The notes below the pieces were generated by a model. The model had not been told where the DNA came from. It saw only the letters and a list, made by a program, of their open reading frames with translations, and did not search any database. Source: Muribaculaceae bacterium (GTDB taxonomy: Bacteria > Bacteroidota > Bacteroidia > Bacteroidales > Muribaculaceae). From it: DNA of 32,035 nucleotides. Positions 1,966-32,035 of the stretch are shown piece by piece (position 1 is the stretch's first letter; every line of letters starts with the position of its first letter). A program made the translations under genes and the position numbers. The DNA lies in NCBI GenBank assembly GCA_022509105.1, contig JAFLTV010000018.1, positions 1-32,035 on the forward strand, read 5' to 3'.

Positions 1966-4089
1966 ATGGCAAAACACGAAGATCTAAATTTGACCCGTAA
2001 TATCGGTATCATGGCCCACATCGATGCCGGTAAAACGACTACTTCAGAACGTATATTGTTCTACACCGGTCTTACCCATAAGATCGGCGAGGTGCATGAT
2101 GGCGCAGCCACAATGGACTGGATGGAACAGGAGCAGGAGAGAGGTATCACAATCACTTCTGCCGCCACAACAACATTCTGGAAATACAACGGGGACAAAT
2201 ATAAAATCAATCTTATAGACACTCCGGGACACGTAGACTTCACCGTAGAGGTGGAACGCTCTTTGCGTGTGCTCGACGGTGCTGTCGCAGCTTTCTGTGC
2301 TGTAGGCGGTGTTGAACCCCAGAGTGAAACAGTCTGGAGACAGGCTGATAAATATAATGTGCCCAGAATTGGTTACGTCAATAAAATGGACCGTTCTGGC
2401 GCTAATTTCTATGAAGTAGTGCGCCAAGTCCGTGAGGTGTTAGGCGCAAACCCGCTTCCCATTCAAATTCCGATCGGAGCCGAAGAATCTTTCAAGGGCG
2501 TGGTTGACCTCGTTACCATGAAAGCCATCTTCTGGCACGATGAAACAATGGGAGCTGAATATGAGGTGGCTGAAATTCCGGCTAATCTTCTCCCGGAAGC
2601 TGAAGAATGGAGAGATAAAATGCTCGAAACTTTGGCGGAGATAGATGAAAACCTCATGGAAAAATATTTCGACGACCCGACCACAATCACGGAGGAAGAG
2701 ATCAAGGCTGCGATACGTAAGGCTACGCTGTCTATGGCTGTGAATCCCATGATTTGTGGTTCTTCTTTTAAGAATAAGGGCGTGCAGACTCTGCTGGATG
2801 CAGTTTGCGCTTATCTTCCCTCACCGGAGGATGCGGGCATAGTGGAAGGTCACTCTGTGGATGATTCTGATAAGATCGAGACACGCGAACCTTCACCTGA
2901 AGCTCCTATGTGTGCTCTTGCATTCAAGATTGCCACAGATCCCTATGTGGGCAGATTGTGCTTCTTCCGTGTGTATTCAGGAGAAATGAACTCCGGAAGC
3001 TACGTGCTTAACACACGCTCCGGAAAGAAAGAAAGAGTTTCACGCCTCTTCCAGATGCATTCCAACAAGCAAAATCCGAAAGAAGTGATAGGTTGCGGCG
3101 ATATAGGTGCCGGAGTCGGTTTCAAGGATATCCGCACAGGCGATACCCTTTGCGACGAAAATGCACCTATAGTGCTTGAATCAATGGAATTCCCGGATCC
3201 GGTAATCGGTATTGCAGTGGAACCAAAGACTCAGAAAGACCTTGACAAGCTTGGAGTTGGTCTTCAGAAGCTTGCTGAGGAAGATCCTACTTTCCGTGTG
3301 GAGACAAATGAAGAAACCGGCCAGACAGTGATCAGCGGTATGGGTGAGCTTCACCTGGATATCATCATCGACCGTCTGCGCAGGGAATTCAAGGTAGAAT
3401 GTAATCAAGGACGTCCGCAGGTAACGTATAAAGAAGCCATTACCAAACCGGTGGAACTTCGTGAAGTATTCAAGAAGCAAACCGGCGGACGTGGTAAATT
3501 CGCCGATATCATTGTAAGGATTGAGCCTGTAGATGATGATTTCGAAGGAAATCTTCAGTTTGTGGATGAAGTGAAGGGTGGCAACGTTCCTAAGGAATAT
3601 ATACCGTCGGTGCAGAAAGGTTTCCAGACCGCAATGCGAAACGGAGTCTTGGCCGGCTATCCTGTAGAACGTCTGAAGGTTACTCTGCTCGATGGAAGCT
3701 ACCATCCTGTAGACTCCGATCAATTGTCGTTTGAGCTTTGTGCCATCCAGGCTTTCAAGAAGGGCAGCGAAAAGGCCGGCCCGGTATTGATGGAGCCTAT
3801 CATGAAGATAGAGGTCGTTACCCCGGAGGAATCAATGGGTGATGTAATCGGCGACTTAAACAAGCGTCGTGGACAGGTTGAGGGTATGGAAACAAGCAGA
3901 AGCGGAGCTCGTATTGTTAAGGCAAAAGCGCCTCTTGCTGAAATGTTTGGATATGTGACAGCATTGAGAACCATCACCTCCGGCCGCGCCACAAGCACCA
4001 TGTCATTCAGCCATTATGCCGAAGTCAGCAATTCAATAGCTAAAAATGTATTGACTGAAGTGCAAGGCAGAGTTGATTTATTGAAATAA
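1966..4089 (+). CDS. fusA: Elongation factor G (canonical)
   Basis: EF-G is the GTPase that drives tRNA-mRNA translocation and, with RRF, ribosome recycling. The 707-residue protein has intact G motifs: AHIDAGKTT (residues 17-25), switch I ERGITIT (58-64), DTPGHVDF with the catalytic His89 (85-92), and NKMD (139-142). The domain IV tip loop YHPVDSD is also present. Tight spacing to rpsG and rpsJ (16 bases) shows co-transcription. No tuf gene follows, unlike the enterobacterial str operon. It is the functional contrast to the EF-G paralogue at 29128-31284, which lacks several of these residues. Confidence 0.98.
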
Positions 4090-24636: not shown

Positions 24637-24658
24637 AATGTTTTTTTATGTAATTTTG
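24627..24658 (+). promoter_or_regulatory. Promoter of the glycogen gene pair
   Basis: TTTG (24627-24630) and TAATTTTG (24651-24658) are exactly 20 bases apart. The -33 box overlaps the descending arm of the preceding terminator. The predicted start is near 24665, so the ATG at 24638 is upstream of it and the ATG at 24704 is used. Confidence 0.85.
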
Positions 24659-24703
24659 CAGTTGAAACTTAAGTTTACAGGTAATAAAATCAATTCAGAC
24701 ACC

Positions 24704-26356
24704 ATGCAATCTGAACACCATAGGGCTTTTGACAAAATAGGGCTTTTGGCGGAATCAAGCTGGGAAGTTTGCAATAAAATTGGTGGTATCTACACCGTTT
24801 TGTCGACAAAAGCAAGGGTATTGCAAGAAACATACGGGGACAAGCTGGTTTTTATAGGTCCCGATGTATGGTCGCAAGAGAATCCCTCCCCGAATTTCAA
24901 AGAAGACAAAAAGCTTTTCAATAATTTTTCCGAGTCGTCCATCTCCGAATTCAATATTAGCGTCAGAACCGGAAGATGGGATATTCCGGGCTCTCCACAA
25001 GTGATTTTGGTAAAGTTTGAAGGCGTATATCCTTCGTTAAACGACATTTTCGGACAAATGTGGCAGCGGTTCGGCGTCGATTCAATGCATGAATACGGCG
25101 ATTATCGCGAGGGATGTGCCTTCGCGGTGGCCACAGCCATAGTTATCCGTCATTTGTCGCAACATCTGGGCTTAAAAGAAAAAGACGTATATGCCCACTT
25201 CAACGAATGGACAACGGGAATGGGATTGCTTTACCTGCGATTTTTGATGCCGGAAGCAGCAACCCTCTTTACCACGCATGCAACAAGTATCGGGCGTAGC
25301 ATTTGTGGCAACGGAAAGCCCCTTTATGACTATTTCGACGGTTACAACGGCGACCAGATGGCTCGCGAGCTGAATATGGAGGCAAAACACAGTCTGGAGA
25401 AAAATGCCGCTCTGCAGGCAGACTGTTTCACGGCTGTGAGCGAGCTGACAGCTCATGAAGCTGAGAAATTGCTTGAGATTCGCCCTCAGGTTGTGACTCC
25501 CAACGGATTTGAACCTGACTTTGTGCCTCAAGGAAGAAAATATCAGACATTACGCACAGCCGGGAGAAAGAAATTGCTTGAGATTGCAACTCAATTGAAA
25601 AACCGGGAGTTTAAAAAAGATTCACTTATAGTTGCCACATCCGGAAGAAACGAATATCGCAACAAAGGCCTTGATCTTTATCTCGATGCATTGGCAAGAC
25701 TGGAATCAAAAAATCCGGGAAAAGAGATTATCGGCCTTGTGCTTGTGCCCGCATGGGTGAGCCACCCCTCTCCCTATCTCCTTGACAACATGATGGAAAA
25801 GGCGAATCCGGATTATATCACCCACATACTCCACAATATGGAGTATGATTCTGTGGCTTTAAGAATAAAAAGTCTTGAGGAATCGGGAAGCTTGGGCAAG
25901 AATGTCAATGTTATATACGTGCCTTGTTATCTTGACGGTGGGGATGGAATTGTAAACATTTCTTACTACGACCTTCTCCCGGCCATTGACATCACGGTTT
26001 TTGCCTCTTATTATGAGCCGTGGGGCTACACTCCGCTTGAAAGCATAGCCTTCGGATTGCCGACCATCACTTCAGATAAAAGCGGATTCGGACAATGGGT
26101 CCTTGAAAATGAGAAGAATTCGATTCTTGAATCCGGAGTAAAGGTGGTAAGCCGCAATGATTCGAATTATAATGAGGCGGCTGATGAAATAGCCTCTGCA
26201 TTGCAAGAATATAGTGAATTAAATAACGTTAAAAGAAAAGAGGCCTCGACGGCTGCCGCAAAGACAGCCTCGAAAGCCGACTGGAAATATTTCATCTCTT
26301 CTTATTATGAAGCTTTCAAGACAGCTGCAAAAAGAAGAGACGAGCGAATCAAATAG
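24704..26356 (+). CDS. GT3-type (eukaryote-like) glycogen synthase
   Basis: The likely reaction is transfer of glucose from a nucleotide sugar (UDP-glucose in the GT3 family) to the growing alpha-1,4 chain. I choose the ATG at 24704, giving 550 residues, because the promoter lies after the upstream ATG at 24638. The N-terminus has LLAESSWEVCNKIGGIYTVL, like the KVGG region of animal and fungal synthases. The E-x7-E motif is YYEPWGYTPLES with Glu438 and Glu446, followed by DKSGFG. It is shorter than the yeast protein (about 705) and lacks the regulatory tails. It is 20 bases before the phosphorylase gene. Confidence 0.9.
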   Translation: MQSEHHRAFDKIGLLAESSWEVCNKIGGIYTVLSTKARVLQETYGDKLVFIGPDVWSQENPSPNFKEDKKLFNNFSESSISEFNISVRTGRWDIPGSPQVILVKFEGVYPSLNDIFGQMWQRFGVDSMHEYGDYREGCAFAVATAIVIRHLSQHLGLKEKDVYAHFNEWTTGMGLLYLRFLMPEAATLFTTHATSIGRSICGNGKPLYDYFDGYNGDQMARELNMEAKHSLEKNAALQADCFTAVSELTAHEAEKLLEIRPQVVTPNGFEPDFVPQGRKYQTLRTAGRKKLLEIATQLKNREFKKDSLIVATSGRNEYRNKGLDLYLDALARLESKNPGKEIIGLVLVPAWVSHPSPYLLDNMMEKANPDYITHILHNMEYDSVALRIKSLEESGSLGKNVNVIYVPCYLDGGDGIVNISYYDLLPAIDITVFASYYEPWGYTPLESIAFGLPTITSDKSGFGQWVLENEKNSILESGVKVVSRNDSNYNEAADEIASALQEYSELNNVKRKEASTAAAKTASKADWKYFISSYYEAFKTAAKRRDERIK

Positions 26357-26376: not shown

Positions 26377-28947
26377 ATGAAATTACAAGTAAGCAATACT
26401 AATGAGCCGGTGTGGCGTAGTCTTACGGTAAGCGCCAACCTGCCCAAGGAATTGAAACCATTGGAGGAAATGTCGAAAAACCTCTGGTGGGTATGGAACA
26501 GTGAAGGGAAAAATTTATTCCGTGATCTTGATCGCGAATTATGGAGAGAAGTGGGTGAAAATCCTGTGATGCTTCTCCAAAAGATAAGCTCATCGCGTCT
26601 GAATGATGTTCGCAAGAACAGTGAAATGATCCTCCGCATAAAGAGGGTATATGGCCAGTTTAAGGCTTATATGAGTGAGAAAATGCGCACAGATATTCCT
26701 TCTGTAGCTTATTTCTCAATGGAATATGGTCTTTGCAACTGCCTTAAGATCTATTCAGGCGGTCTTGGAGTTTTGGCCGGCGACTATATCAAACAGGCTT
26801 CCGACAGCCGGGTTAGAATGACAGCCGTTGGTTTCCTTTATCGTTACGGATATTTCGCACAGGCCCTTTCAATCGACGGCCAACAGGTGGCCAACTACGA
26901 GCCTCAGAATTTCGAACAGTTGCCTATCGAACAGGTTATGGGCGAGGATGGTCAGCCTATGATTCTTGAGGTTCCCTATCCGGGTCGTATCATCTATTGC
27001 CATATCTGGAGAGTCAACGTGGGCCGTATGAATCTTTATCTGCTTGACACAGACTTCGAGATGAACTCGGAATTCGACCGTCAGATCACTCACAAACTCT
27101 ACGGCGGCGATTGGGAAAACCGTATGAAACAGGAATACCTTCTCGGTATCGGTGGCATTTATATGCTCAACAAGCTTGGAATTCATACAGATATCTACCA
27201 CGCCAATGAGGGCCACGCTGCGTTGCTTAATCTCCAGCGTCTTGTAGACTATGTTCAGAACGATCATCTCTCCTTCAATGTAGCTTTGGAAGTGGTGAGA
27301 GCCAGTTCGCTTTATACTGTCCACACTCCCGTGCCGGCTGGTCATGACTATTTTGAAGAGAGTCTTTTAGGCAAATATTTGGGTGAATATCCTGCTAAAT
27401 TAGGAATTTCATGGTCCGATCTTATGAATATGGGACGTGAAAATCCTGATTCTCCGGAAAGATTCTCCATGAGTGTTTTTGCATTGAACACTTGTCAGGA
27501 GGCAAACGGCGTGAGCTGGCTCCACGGAGAGGTTTCGAAGAAAATGTTTGCCGGAGTATGGAAAGGCTACGGACCGGCAGAATCACATGTGACCTATGTC
27601 ACCAATGGTGTCCACATGCCTACATGGGCCGCTTCTGAATGGAAAGAATTCTATGCCAAACATCTCGGCCAGGTTGTCTTTGAAGAACAAAGCAACCCGG
27701 AGGCATGGAAAGGCATTTTCGACGTTCCTGATGAGGAGATCTGGAATATGAGAATGACACTCAAACATAAGTTTATCAACTTTGTTAAAAAGGATTTCAA
27801 AGAAAAATGGCTTAAAAACCAGGGAGATCCCGGTGCAGTTGTAAGCATTCTCGAAAAGATTAACCCGGATGCGCTCATCATAGGTTTCGCACGTCGTTTT
27901 GCCACATATAAGAGAGCTCATTTGCTCTTCACCGACCTTGATCGTCTTGCAAAGATTGTAAACAACGACAAATATCCGGTGCAATTCATCTTCTCCGGTA
28001 AAGCCCACCCTGCTGATGGAGCCGGTCAGGGCCTTATCAAGAGAATTGTTGAAATCTCAAAGATGCCACAATTCCAGGGAAAGATTATCTTCCTCGAAGA
28101 CTATAACATGATTGTTGCGAAACGTCTTGTCTCCGGAGTTGATATCTGGCTCAACACTCCGACACGTCCTTTGGAAGCTTCCGGCACATCGGGAGAAAAG
28201 GCTGAAATGAACGGAGTATTGAATTTCTCTGTGCTCGACGGATGGTGGTATGAAGGCTATAAGTTTGATGAACTCGCCGGTTGGGCTTTGACTGAAAAGC
28301 GCACATTCGCCGACCAAGGCCAGCAAGACCGACTTGATGCAGCCACAATCTATTCAATGCTTGAAAATGAAATTGTGCCTTTATATTTCAAGAAAAACTA
28401 TAAAGGATATAGCCCTGAATGGATTGACAGAATCAAACGTTCGATAGGCCATATAGCGCCTCATTTCACAATGAAGCGTCAGCTTGACGATTATATCTCA
28501 CGCCTCTATGTTCCGGAAGCAAAACGTGCTGACAAACTCAAAAAGAATGATTTTGCAAAGGCACGCGAAATTGTGGAATGGAAAGAGAACGTGGCTTCAA
28601 AATGGAACGATATCCAGGTGCTTAGCGTGGAAATTAACGACGGTCAGGCAGCCTCCGGCACAGCTTTGAGATCCGGAAATTCGATCTATGTGAAATGTGT
28701 GATCGACACTAAAGGTCTCGGAGACTCAATTGGAGTTGAATTGGTGAAATATCGCGACCACGATGGAAATGCTGAATTTGTAGATACAGTTCCTTTGAAG
28801 GTTGTAGGCCATGAAGGTGATATCTACACTTATGAATACGACCATAAGCTTGAAAATGTGGGTGCTTTCAGATATTCTCTCAGATTGTATCCGAAGAATA
28901 AGGATCTGCCTCACCGCATGGACTTCGCCTATACAAAATGGTTCTAA
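26377..28947 (+). CDS. glgP: Alpha-glucan (glycogen) phosphorylase
   Basis: It releases glucose-1-phosphate from alpha-1,4 glucans, so it opposes the upstream synthase. The 856-residue protein has the DUF3417 N-terminal region (SKNLWWVWN near residues 34-42) and the GT35 core with SMEYGL and [10 protein letters not shown]. The pyridoxal phosphate site lies in [14 protein letters not shown], with Lys608 the likely Schiff-base residue. It belongs to the shorter bacterial and archaeal phosphorylase branch (TIGR02094-like) rather than the animal-type branch. No glgB or glgC lies nearby, so branching and nucleotide-sugar synthesis must be elsewhere. Confidence 0.95.
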
Positions 28948-28968
28948 AATTTTGAATTCCTTATAAAT

Positions 28969-29004
28969 AAAGTCGTATCGGATTGTCTGGTGCGACTTTT
29001 TTAT
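28969..29004 (+). terminator. Intrinsic terminator after glgP
   Basis: Bases 28969-28979 pair with 28989-28999 (two G-U pairs) around a 9-base loop, and a T-run to 29002 follows. It ends the glycogen pair facing the oppositely oriented EF-G2 gene. Confidence 0.85.
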
Positions 29005-29070
29005 ATGAATATATCCCGCAGTAGTTTTGTTTTTTCAGAAGGCTAACAAAGGGAATATAAAAAGCAAAAT

Positions 29071-29103
29071 AAAAAATGAAGGAAGCCCGAACAGACTTCC
29101 TTC
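29071..29103 (-). terminator. Intrinsic terminator for the EF-G2 gene
   Basis: On the minus strand GAAGGAAG and CTTCCTTC (29103-29096 and 29085-29078) form a perfect 8-bp stem with a 10-base loop, followed by A then T6 (29076-29071). It lies about 25 bases past the stop. Confidence 0.85.
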
Positions 29104-29127
29104 TGAAATTGGTTAATTGAAGTTTGA

Positions 29128-31284
29128 TTAATCTTCTTCTTGAGTTTCTGCGTATTCTTTGAGGAGTTTTTCTTGTACGTCGCCCGGCACGAGTTCGTAA
29201 GAAGAGAACTGCATTGAGAACGAGCCACGTCCACCGGTGATAGAGCTCAAAGAAGTAGCATAAGATGACATCTCTTTGAGAGGCACTTTAGCGTTAAGTT
29301 TCGGGATGCCTCCTTCAGAATCCTGATCCATGATTATACCGCGACGACCGTTAACGTCTTTCATAACATCACCCATTGTGTCGGCCGGAGTTATAACCTC
29401 AACGTCGTAAACCGGTTCGAGAATCTTCGGATTGGCAGCCTTAAACGCCTGAGAGAATGCATTACGTCCTGCGAGACGGAAAGAGATTTCATTGGAGTCA
29501 ACCGGGTGCATCTTGCCGTCATAAATCATTACGCGCACGTCGCGGGCATAAGAACCTGTCAACGGACCTTGTTCCATTCTGTCCATAAGACCCTTCACGA
29601 TTGCAGGAATGAAGCGTGCATCGATAGCACCACCGACGATACAGTTGTAAACTACGAGCTTGCCACCCCAATCCAATGGAATTTCCTGTTTGTCGCGCAC
29701 GTTAAGCTTGAATTCCTGACTGCCGAATTTGTAAGCATCCGGTTCAGGCATGCCTTCTGTGTAAGGTTCGATGATGAGGTGAACTTCACCAAACTGACCG
29801 GAACCTCCGGATTGTTTCTTATGACGATAGTCTGCGCGTGCAGCCTTGGTGATTGTTTCACGATAAGGAATCTTCGGTTCGATAAATTCGATAGGAAGTT
29901 TATCATTGTTTTCAACTCTCCATTTGAGTGTGCGGAGGTGGAATTCACCCTGGCCCTTAACGAGAGTCTGTTTGAGTTCCTTGCTTTGTTCAACAAGGAT
30001 TGTGGGATCTTCTTCGTGCATACGTGTCAGGATGCCCATAAGCTTTTCAGCATCGCTTTCTGAAAGCGGACGGATTGCACGGATATATCTGGGAGCCGGA
30101 TATTTTATAAAGTCGAACACATAGTCGCAGCCTTTTGCATCGAGAGTGTTGCCTGTGCGCACGTCTTTCAATTTCACGGCAGCGCCCAAGTCACCGGCTT
30201 CAATAGTTTCGACAGCGTTTCTGATCTGTCCGGACACGGTGAAGAGTTGAGCCATACGTTCTTTTCCACCTCTTGAAATATTTTCAAGGTCGTCGCCTGC
30301 TTTGAGAGTGCCGCTCATAACTTTGAAATAAGAAACTTCTCCGATATGCGGCTCAACTGAAGTCTTGAATACGAAGATTGAAAGCGGACCGTTTGAATCC
30401 GGCGCCACAGCATCGCCGTTGACTGTTTCGGGAGCGGCAACCTCATTGGGTGAAGGACAGATATTTCCGAGGAATTCCATCATTCTTCTGATACCCATAT
30501 CTTTTATTGCGCTTGCAATGAAAACGGGGAAAATCTTGCGGTCAACGAGACCTTTGCGAAGTCCGTGGCGGATTTCATCTTCAGTCAAAGCTTCGTCGGC
30601 AAAATATTTTTCCATCAATTCCTCGTCGTTGGTAGCTGCGGCTTCAAGGAGAGCGTCGTGCATTTCCTGAGCTTTGTCAAGCTGGTCGGCCGGGATGTCG
30701 GAAATTTTTGGAACGCCGCCTTCGGGGCCCCATTCATATTTCTTCATCGTGAGCACGTCGATCATGGAATTGAAGTTAGTGCCGGCGTTAAGCGGATATT
30801 GCACAGGCATAACGTTCTGGCCGAAGTGTTCGCGAAGTTGATCTAAAAGATTGTCAAAGTCAACTTTTTCACCATCCATGTGGTTAAGAGCGAACACAAC
30901 AGGTTTGTTGAGTTTGTTGGTGACACGGAAAATATTCTGTGTTCCCACCTCTACGCCATAACTTGCGTTTACAACGATAACACCTGTGTCGCATACTCCA
31001 AGAGCAGTGTAGACGTTGCCTGTGAAGTCATCGGCTCCCGGGCAATCGATCACGTTTAATTTCTTCCCGTTGAATTCGGTGTTGAAAACTGTGGAGAATA
31101 CTGAATAGCCGTATTCTTTTTCAACCGGGAAATAGTCTGTCACTGTGTTTCCTGCTTCAATAGTACCCCTGCGTTTAATCACACCGCTTTCAAAAAGCAT
31201 TGATTCCGCAAGGGTGGTTTTGCCTGCGCCTTTTGAGCCTATCAAGGCAATGTTTTTAATCTCGTTTGTTTTGTATATCTTCAT
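29128..31284 (-). CDS. fusA2: EF-G paralogue (EF-G2-like) with altered GTPase motifs
   Basis: The 718-residue protein has all five EF-G domains, including the domain IV tip loop HPVDSNE and GGRGSFSMQFSSYELVP at the end. The G domain is altered. G1 reads GSKGAGKTT (16-24) instead of AHIDAGKTT. Switch I reads EKEYGYSVF (55-63) instead of ERGITIT. G3 reads DCPGADDF (80-87) with Ala84 where the catalytic His sits; G4 is NHMD (134-137). In Bacteroides thetaiotaomicron an EF-G2 of this kind is reported to lack GTPase activity yet support translocation and gut colonisation under carbon limitation. I infer the same role here. It is a single-gene unit. Confidence 0.9.
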   Translation of the reverse strand: MKIYKTNEIKNIALIGSKGAGKTTLAESMLFESGVIKRRGTIEAGNTVTDYFPVEKEYGYSVFSTVFNTEFNGKKLNVIDCPGADDFTGNVYTALGVCDTGVIVVNASYGVEVGTQNIFRVTNKLNKPVVFALNHMDGEKVDFDNLLDQLREHFGQNVMPVQYPLNAGTNFNSMIDVLTMKKYEWGPEGGVPKISDIPADQLDKAQEMHDALLEAAATNDEELMEKYFADEALTEDEIRHGLRKGLVDRKIFPVFIASAIKDMGIRRMMEFLGNICPSPNEVAAPETVNGDAVAPDSNGPLSIFVFKTSVEPHIGEVSYFKVMSGTLKAGDDLENISRGGKERMAQLFTVSGQIRNAVETIEAGDLGAAVKLKDVRTGNTLDAKGCDYVFDFIKYPAPRYIRAIRPLSESDAEKLMGILTRMHEEDPTILVEQSKELKQTLVKGQGEFHLRTLKWRVENNDKLPIEFIEPKIPYRETITKAARADYRHKKQSGGSGQFGEVHLIIEPYTEGMPEPDAYKFGSQEFKLNVRDKQEIPLDWGGKLVVYNCIVGGAIDARFIPAIVKGLMDRMEQGPLTGSYARDVRVMIYDGKMHPVDSNEISFRLAGRNAFSQAFKAANPKILEPVYDVEVITPADTMGDVMKDVNGRRGIIMDQDSEGGIPKLNAKVPLKEMSSYATSLSSITGGRGSFSMQFSSYELVPGDVQEKLLKEYAETQEED

Positions 31285-31308
31285 TCTTTAAAAGATTTTA
31301 AGTGTTTC

Positions 31309-31340
31309 GAAGGTTAGAGTCTATTGCTTGATTTTTCAAA
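31309..31340 (-). promoter_or_regulatory. Candidate promoter for the EF-G2 gene
   Basis: On the minus strand TTTG (31340-31337) is 20 bases from TAACCTTC (31316-31309), which matches TAnnTTTG in 6 of 8 positions. Predicted start is near 31302, about 18 bases before the ATG. The weak -7 box would fit a promoter that needs an activator. Confidence 0.45.
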
Positions 31341-31354
31341 AATCAATAACTTTG
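31323..31354 (+). promoter_or_regulatory. Candidate plus-strand promoter in the divergent region
   Basis: ATTG (31323-31326) and TAACTTTG (31347-31354) are 20 bases apart. The -7 box is perfect. It points toward hemW but is 270 bases upstream, leaving a long leader; I see no gene in that leader that I would trust. Confidence 0.5.
31328..31346. repeat. Perfect palindrome between the divergent promoters
   Basis: Bases 31328-31336 and 31338-31346 form a perfect 9-bp inverted repeat with a one-base centre (TTGATTTTTCAAAAATCAA). It fills the spacer of the plus-strand candidate promoter and contains the -33 box of the minus-strand one. It looks like a dimer operator rather than a terminator. The rest of this 342-base gap (31285-31626) is AT-rich; apart from the promoter candidates listed I see nothing in it. 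Confidence 0.6.
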
Positions 31355-31583
31355 TTTAATCGTTTTTCCGATTGTTTTTGGGGCCATGATATGGTTGCCC
31401 TCAAAAAGCTTTGCAATTTACTAAAAATTTGCTTCAGATTAATGATATTTAAATATGTTAAAAAACACCTTTTTCCTCTCAAAAGCGTGTTTTATATATA
31501 TTTTAAACAAATTTAATACTACAACATGGAAATCGGGCTCTGACTCTTCCTGAAAAATAATGTATTCTGTGATATAGAGAGTG

Positions 31584-31593
31584 TATAAATTTG
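31584..31593 (+). promoter_or_regulatory. Candidate -7 box upstream of hemW
   Basis: TATAAATTTG contains a perfect TAAATTTG -7 box (31586-31593), with the start expected about 27 bases before the hemW ATG. No TTTG is found at the usual upstream distance, so the match is partial. Confidence 0.4.
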
Positions 31594-31626
31594 ATATAAA
31601 TTAAGAAGAAAAAGCTCATTCCTACC

Positions 31627-32035
31627 ATGGCCGGTCTTTACATTCATATTCCATTTTGCAGATCTAAATGCCTTTACTGTGATTTTTACAGTGGAGGCAG
31701 CCGTATAGCAGATTGGAATTCCTATGTCGAGGCTCTACTTTTAGAATTAAAACTGAGGAGAAAAGAATTTAGCGAACCATTTGACACTCTCTATATAGGA
31801 GGAGGGACTCCGTCTCTTATGCCCGAGGAAAAATTTTCCTTTCTGAAAAAATCAATTTCCGATTGCATCGACGCCGGCAAGTTGGAGGAATTTACAATTG
31901 AAGTGAATCCGGAAGATATTTCAGAGGAGAAATGTGAATTATGGAAAACCAATGGAGTGAATCGTGTGAGCATTGGCGTTCAATCCATGATTGATAATGA
32001 GCTGAAAAAAATAGGAAGGCGTCATACCTCTGAAG
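31627..32035 (+). CDS. hemW: HemW-like radical SAM protein, 3' truncated by window end
   Basis: The ATG at 31627 opens a frame that runs off the window, giving 136 visible residues. It starts MAGLYIHIPFCRSKCLYCDF, with the radical SAM motif CxxxCxYC (CRSKCLYC), then the SAM-contacting LYIGGGTPSLM and the strand EFTIEVNPEDI and RVSIGVQSM. This is the HemW family (formerly called coproporphyrinogen III oxidase-like), which binds a 4Fe-4S cluster and heme and is thought to insert heme into respiratory enzymes rather than oxidise coproporphyrinogen. The fourth cysteine position typical of HemW (CxxxCxxCxF/C) has Phe after Asp, as usual for HemW. Divergent from the EF-G2 gene. Confidence 0.92.
   Translation, partial: MAGLYIHIPFCRSKCLYCDFYSGGSRIADWNSYVEALLLELKLRRKEFSEPFDTLYIGGGTPSLMPEEKFSFLKKSISDCIDAGKLEEFTIEVNPEDISEEKCELWKTNGVNRVSIGVQSMIDNELKKIGRRHTSE

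Follow-up and report, generated by a model that had tools for sequence, protein, structure and literature searches.

A Muribaculaceae EF-G2 with alanine at the catalytic histidine position, preceded by a Cur-type palindrome

The DNA analysed here is a 32,035-nucleotide stretch (the window) from a Muribaculaceae bacterium (GenBank assembly GCA_022509105.1, contig JAFLTV010000018.1). It carries two EF-G genes, a canonical EF-G and a divergent paralogue, EF-G2, separated by about 25 kb of the same contig. The original prediction of a glycogen gene pair beside EF-G2 agrees with the Pfam assignments, and on its other side EF-G2 diverges from a radical-SAM gene, which we take to be HemW-like. The features of the window are as follows.

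1966..4089, plus strand: canonical EF-G (fusA), 707 aa, with the catalytic His, used as the comparison protein (sequence and family model)
24638..26356, plus strand: neighbouring glycogen synthase family gene (Pfam)
26377..28947, plus strand: neighbouring glycan phosphorylase family gene, convergent with EF-G2 (Pfam)
29128..31284, minus strand: EF-G2 gene, 718 aa, ATG start (ORF, family model, B. theta alignment, tree)
29674..29754, minus strand: codons of residues 511-537, a 27-residue domain IV insert without counterpart in canonical EF-G (position worked out manually from the ATG at 31284)
31015..31047, minus strand: codons of residues 80-90 with the G3 motif DCPGADDF, the Ala84 codon at 31033-31035 (positions worked out manually from the ATG at 31284)
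31413..31420, minus strand: TAAATTGC, a possible -7 element of the promoter, centred on the box alignment at 41 nt downstream (promoters aligned on the box)
31454..31469, minus strand: Cur-type palindrome GGTGTTTTTTAACATA, with the exact core TGTTTTTTAACA at 31456-31467 (consensus scan, relatives' promoters)
31627..32035, plus strand: start of the radical-SAM gene, divergent from EF-G2 (Pfam)

Comparison of the two EF-Gs of the window revealed that position 84 is Ala in EF-G2 (DCPGADDF) and His in the canonical protein (DTPGHVDF). The G1 motif of EF-G2 is GSKGAGKTT, with Gly aligned to an Asp of the canonical P-loop; its switch I reads EKEYGYSVF, in which YGYSV stands where canonical EF-G has the RGITI of RGITIT; and its G4 motif is NHMD, in which the Lys of the canonical NKMD is lost. 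EF-G2 retains the P-loop GKTT, the DxPG and the switch I residue Ser61. The Pfam layout is of the EF-G type, with the GTPase domain followed by domains II, III, IV and V. The domain IV loop HPVDSNE resembles HPVDSDQ of canonical EF-G, and residues 511-537 of the same domain face a gap in the canonical protein. The original prediction had read Ala84 in place of the catalytic His, as well as the G1 motif, switch I and the domain IV loop, in the same way, and was accurate on each of these points; it had named neither the strand nor the G4 change nor the domain IV insert. A third full-length EF-G was not found in the window's own genome, which is rated 88.85% complete, the remaining matches being partial and weaker. 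In some Bacteroidales genomes (G359:C5, G367:C46, G377:C3, G383:C12, G385:C25, G395:C111 and G408:C13), EF-G2 and a canonical-type EF-G gene diverge, with approximately 1.2 to 1.6 kb between them.

EF-G2 scores 1263.3 bits with the NCBIfam model EFG2_Bacteroid (cut-off 1000) and 532.3 bits with the EF-G model TIGR00484, below the cut-off of 659.4, whereas the canonical EF-G passes TIGR00484. The best solved structure is PDB 7uvp/8dmf, matched over residues 1-717 with 69% identity over 717 residues, and the title of 8dmf describes ribosome-bound Bacteroides thetaiotaomicron EF-G2. The predicted structure of EF-G2 (pLDDT 88.4, pTM 0.81) aligns to EF-G structures, with a 70S-EF-G complex on top by Z and 8dmf at rank 12 (717 residues aligned at 4.0 Å), a rank that we take as an effect of domain arrangement. 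In a FastTree phylogeny of 71 proteins (43 EF-G2s, 27 Bacteroidota canonical EF-Gs and E. coli EF-G as root), all 43 EF-G2s, including the B. theta protein, form a single clade with support of 1.0, and the 16 Bacteroidales EF-G2s form one with support of 0.983. The tree took in 11 of the 78 close relatives, and a length filter removed L174, L177 and L178 from 29 fetched canonical EF-Gs. A position outside the Bacteroidota EF-G2 clade had been named beforehand as evidence against the assignment; this did not occur, and EF-G2 groups inside that clade together with its B. theta counterpart, separate from the canonical EF-Gs. The motif YGYSV was given by Margus et al. 2011 as the G2 motif of a Bacteroidetes sub-subgroup of EFG II (PMC3150367); with the B. 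theta match, this makes EF-G2 a kind of protein already known. The membership of the window protein in the family of B. thetaiotaomicron EF-G2 is supported, and the earlier claim of a factor of this type stands on the B. theta alignment, the family model, the phylogeny, the changes in the G domain and domain IV, and the Cur-type promoter described below. The extra region of EF-G2 without counterpart in EF-G1 reportedly comprises 26 residues (Han 2023), and we infer that the 27-residue insert of the window protein is this region.

The loss of the catalytic His was followed across relatives. None of 158 EF-G2s, the window and B. theta proteins included, has His at position 84, whereas 28/28 canonical EF-Gs carry DTPGHVDF. 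The residue is Ala in 66, Ser in 10 and Gly in 2 of 78 close relatives; Ser in 2 and Ala in 1 of three other Bacteroidales; Tyr in 15, Phe in 6, Leu in 5 and Pro in 1 of 27 other Bacteroidota; Tyr in 12, Thr in 6, Ser in 1 and Ala in 1 of 20 more distant Bacteroidota; and Ser in 14, Ala in 7, Leu in 6, Met in 1 and Pro in 1 of 29 order-level loci, among which L088 had already been counted. These nine residues provide natural variants at the catalytic position. The 158 proteins come from two collections, between which a partial identity check found no duplicates beyond L088, and a species may occur twice. The close-relative set consists of 79 loci (L008-L086, 74-93% identity), of which the N-terminally cut L082 was excluded from residue reading and promoter scan; 36 are named as Muribaculaceae or its genera and the rest are bins labelled Porphyromonadaceae, Bacteroides sp., Bacteroidales or bacterium, so that we infer family membership for the set as a whole. 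An EF-G2 with 83% identity to the window protein carries the name Lepagella muris. The loss of the G4 Lys is less strict than that of the His, since the Lys is still present in 12/78 close relatives, 15/27 other Bacteroidota and 9/20 distant ones. The domain IV insert comprises 27 residues in 78/78 close relatives and 3/3 other Bacteroidales, and 18 residues in 27/27 other and 20/20 more distant Bacteroidota. In a phylum sample, an EF-G2-type match of at least 727 bits occurs in 109 of 296 genomes (the next score below the gap is 566), of which the G3 motif was read in 50, and only 15 of the 296 score above the curated EFG2_Bacteroid cut-off; in an order sample, this cut-off is passed in 53/60 genomes.

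With a probability of about 0.83, this EF-G2 with Ala84, a member of the Bacteroides EF-G2 family, is predicted to carry out slow translocation without GTP hydrolysis under carbon limitation. Going from the missing His to absent hydrolysis depends on what is reported for the orthologue of B. theta and on statements in papers that cite that work. The T. thermophilus EF-G-2 (1wdt chain) presumably also has a G3 motif without His. For this protein, another member of EFG II, GTPase activity has been reported (PMC3150367). The window EF-G2 might likewise still hydrolyse GTP, slowly or intrinsically via other residues, with Ala84 lowering turnover and not abolishing it, as the retained P-loop, DxPG and switch I Ser61 would allow. 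With GTPase activity in a Thermus protein whose G3 is presumably His-free, the absence of His alone is no proof of absent hydrolysis. We nevertheless regard residual hydrolysis as unlikely, since no GTPase activity is reported for the B. theta orthologue, whose residue at this position is Ser, and the window protein has lost the G4 Lys too. The B. theta EF-G2 is reported to work without GTP hydrolysis (PMC10294740, PMC12775393), and its gene fusA2 to be needed for gut colonisation (PMC6989115, PMC10294740).

In B. theta, the palindrome upstream of fusA2 is bound by the regulator BT4338 (Cur), which activates the gene, and fusA2 mRNA rises 238-fold under carbon limitation (PMC6989115); B. fragilis, B. 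ovatus and B. vulgatus are reported to share this wiring (PMC10294740). Comparison of the window with the Cur consensus wwwTATGTTnTAnAACATAwww of Ravcheev et al. 2013 (PMC3878776) revealed two places with three mismatches to its 16-base centre and none with fewer, one of them starting 185 bases before the EF-G2 start. The box of the window has an exact TGTTN4AACA core but departs from the full consensus at three bases, with GG replacing TA on one side, which weighs against the preferred reading of EF-G2 given above. In promoters with at least 350 bases upstream, a Cur-type box with at most two mismatches was found in 70/77 close-relative promoters (window included), vs 0.5% of dinucleotide shuffles, and in 0/29 other EF-G2 promoters under the same limit to the 16-base centre (106 scanned in all). 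The core is present within one mismatch in 73 of the 77, and is exact in 61 of these, including the window. When these 73 promoters were aligned on the box, TAAATTGC (at most one mismatch) appeared 41 nt from the box centre in 53 and at 40 nt in 9 others (62/73), with the window having it exact at 41 nt, and 200 shuffles gave at most 3 occurrences in any column. Taken alone, a single match to the core in so short an intergenic region would mean little; a chance box is set aside by the conservation and fixed spacing across promoters.

We take TAAATTGC as a putative promoter element. The Bacteroides -7 consensus is TAnnTTTG, which on the box-aligned promoters gives weak columns (11/73 at 32 nt and 6/73 at 41 nt, with a shuffle maximum of 6), so that the reading of TAAATTGC as a -7 element is a guess. 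Four loci (L008, L038, L047 and L054), of which L008 is the closest named relative, lack the Cur-type box before EF-G2 and keep TAAATTGC, the loss in L008 likewise weighing against the preferred reading; having no core within one mismatch, they fall outside the 73 aligned promoters. EF-G2 may be under other control there, and the four promoters are available as natural variants. In the order sample (L221, which has no upstream stretch, omitted), the 12-base form TATGTTN4AACATA within two mismatches occurs in 13/28 promoters vs 7% of shuffles, namely in 8/10 where EF-G2 has YGYSV (one from the window's family) and in 5/18 where it does not. An RNA element in the EF-G2 leader was rejected: the fold z-score is -1.27 and no Rfam match reaches the gathering score in 28900-32035. 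The conserved palindrome probably turns EF-G2 on once sugar is exhausted.

Analysis of the window's genome for a regulator yielded three genes with a cNMP-binding domain. A one-mismatch box starts 67 bases before the start codon of one of them, L118 (233 aa). In Bacteroides, BT4338 and its orthologues have been described with such a box before their own genes (PMC3878776). L118 is present in 57/59 genomes of the window's family, and its promoters contain a box with at most two mismatches in 18/30 cases vs 0/30 control stretches. In 13 other Bacteroidales genomes, the L118 counterpart is 46-63% identical in 12 and only 35% in one; the box (at most two mismatches) precedes 5/12 of these counterparts vs 1/12 CRP paralogues and 1/11 L120-like genes, for which 12 of 14 and 11 of 12 sequences were retrieved. 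The own-promoter box and the conservation in relatives, rather than a comparison with BT4338 itself, favour L118 as the likely Cur orthologue and regulator of EF-G2. Among PDB chains, 1zyb (CRP) matches L120, another CRP-type gene of the window's genome, at 52 bits, and does not match L118. We take 1zyb to be a B. theta protein, and the match speaks against L118 if 1zyb is BT4338. Across the genome, 23 sites lie within one mismatch of the Cur-type pattern, vs 4 for the reversed pattern; of 15 inspected, 8 have an ORF of at least 100 aa starting within 350 bases, some of them doubtful. A gene for a SusC-like outer membrane receptor has a perfect site 214 bases ahead of it (L122), and a glycosidase-like gene has a one-mismatch site 60 bases ahead of it (L127), both genes named by reading the translation, as expected of a carbohydrate regulon; the other inspected sites showed no convincing downstream gene.

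The adjoining glycogen genes had been proposed to link storage and slow translation, which would tie EF-G2 functionally to glycogen storage through co-regulated neighbours. The neighbourhood does recur among close relatives: glgP flanks 32/79 EF-G2 loci in at least two orientations, being upstream and co-directional within 500 bases at 15, downstream and convergent as in the window at 9, and further away at 8, so that 24 lie within 500 bp. Against the tie, 30 of the 79 loci have at least 2.9 kb on each side and no glgP (17 were too short to judge), L024 and L041 among the 30 still keeping glgS within 6 kb; 2/2 order-level relatives have the radical-SAM gene near EF-G2 and lack the glycogen pair; and 0/25 glgS promoters contain a Cur box with at most two mismatches (5 have three), which argues against Cur control of the glycogen genes. 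With neighbours that are not universal and carry no box, the storage link is unsupported; a regulatory link to the glycogen genes was not found, and we consider the tie improbable. At L011, L025, L029 and 12 further loci, glgP is co-directional with EF-G2 and stops less than 500 bases ahead of it, and read-through into EF-G2 is possible there. A seemingly more similar hemW (77%) on a Prevotella-labelled contig (L087) was dropped, as only 233 bases are present there, a short N-terminus.

It is highly improbable that EF-G2 acts in tetracycline ribosomal protection, or only in recycling and not as a translocase. The B. theta orthologue does bear the name TetQ in its PDB chain, but EF-G2 reaches just 139.9 bits against the TetQ cut-off of 1425, and 165.1 bits with the TetM/W/O/S model (cut-off 1100), so that the ribosomal protection identity was rejected; the B. 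theta chain itself scores 139.6 bits with TetQ and 1390.4 with EFG2_Bacteroid. The canonical-like domain IV loop also speaks against this reading. The name tetracycline resistance protein TetQ on the 7uvp/8dmf chain looks like an annotation error, its score being far below the TetQ model.

For the preferred reading, hydrolysis-free translocation during carbon limitation, we propose the following mechanism. When preferred sugars are exhausted, the Cur-type CRP-family activator L118 (the C12 gene) would bind the palindrome and start EF-G2 transcription. EF-G2, with its retained P-loop, would take up nucleotide and occupy the A site of the ribosome, where the energy of binding by itself would let domain IV move tRNA and mRNA. 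Release from the ribosome would be slow because no GTP is hydrolysed, and EF-G2 would sustain low-level protein synthesis while sparing GTP, with the canonical GTP-hydrolysing EF-G serving fast growth beside it. Although the EF-G2 type of protein has been described, the window adds a member outside Bacteroides with a Cur-type promoter. A narrow literature search on EF-G2 with Muribaculaceae gave only papers that do not mention Muribaculaceae, and one on Muribaculaceae with BT4338 gave a single review. More tentatively, and at somewhat less than even odds, a starvation module that pairs a Cur-type activator controlling its own gene with an EF-G2 working free of hydrolysis may exist across Muribaculaceae and several other Bacteroidales families and not just in Bacteroides, the His-free translocase may be an old trait in much of Bacteroidota, and GTP-sparing translation may be a general survival strategy. 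Since both the protein and the logic of its promoter recur outside Bacteroides, the idea of ribosome movement free of GTP hydrolysis becomes testable there.

Comparison with known systems places EF-G2 within the EFG II subfamily, with which it shares the exact YGYSV, the switch I Ser, Gly16, Leu25 and the lack of RGITI; the match covers switch I, Gly16 and Leu25 among the conserved positions. The G4 motif NKxD is stated to be conserved in EFG II, as a trait and not a defining feature, whereas the window protein has NHMD (PMC3150367). As in the Cur/BT4338 regulon of Bacteroides (PMC6989115, PMC3878776), a TGTTN4AACA-type palindrome precedes both EF-G2 and a CRP-family gene; here the arrangement is seen outside Bacteroides, and the regulator is identified indirectly, not by direct comparison with BT4338. 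Relative to B. theta EF-G2 (BT2167, fusA2; 7uvp/8dmf), the window protein has Ala in place of Ser at the catalytic position, NHMD in place of NQLD in G4 and SAI in place of CGG in G5, its box is weaker on one side, and glycogen genes adjoin its gene. The two proteins share DCPGxDDF without His, the EYGYSVF switch I and the 27-residue domain IV insert, which aligns without a gap, and both have a Cur-type promoter and a canonical EF-G in the same genome.
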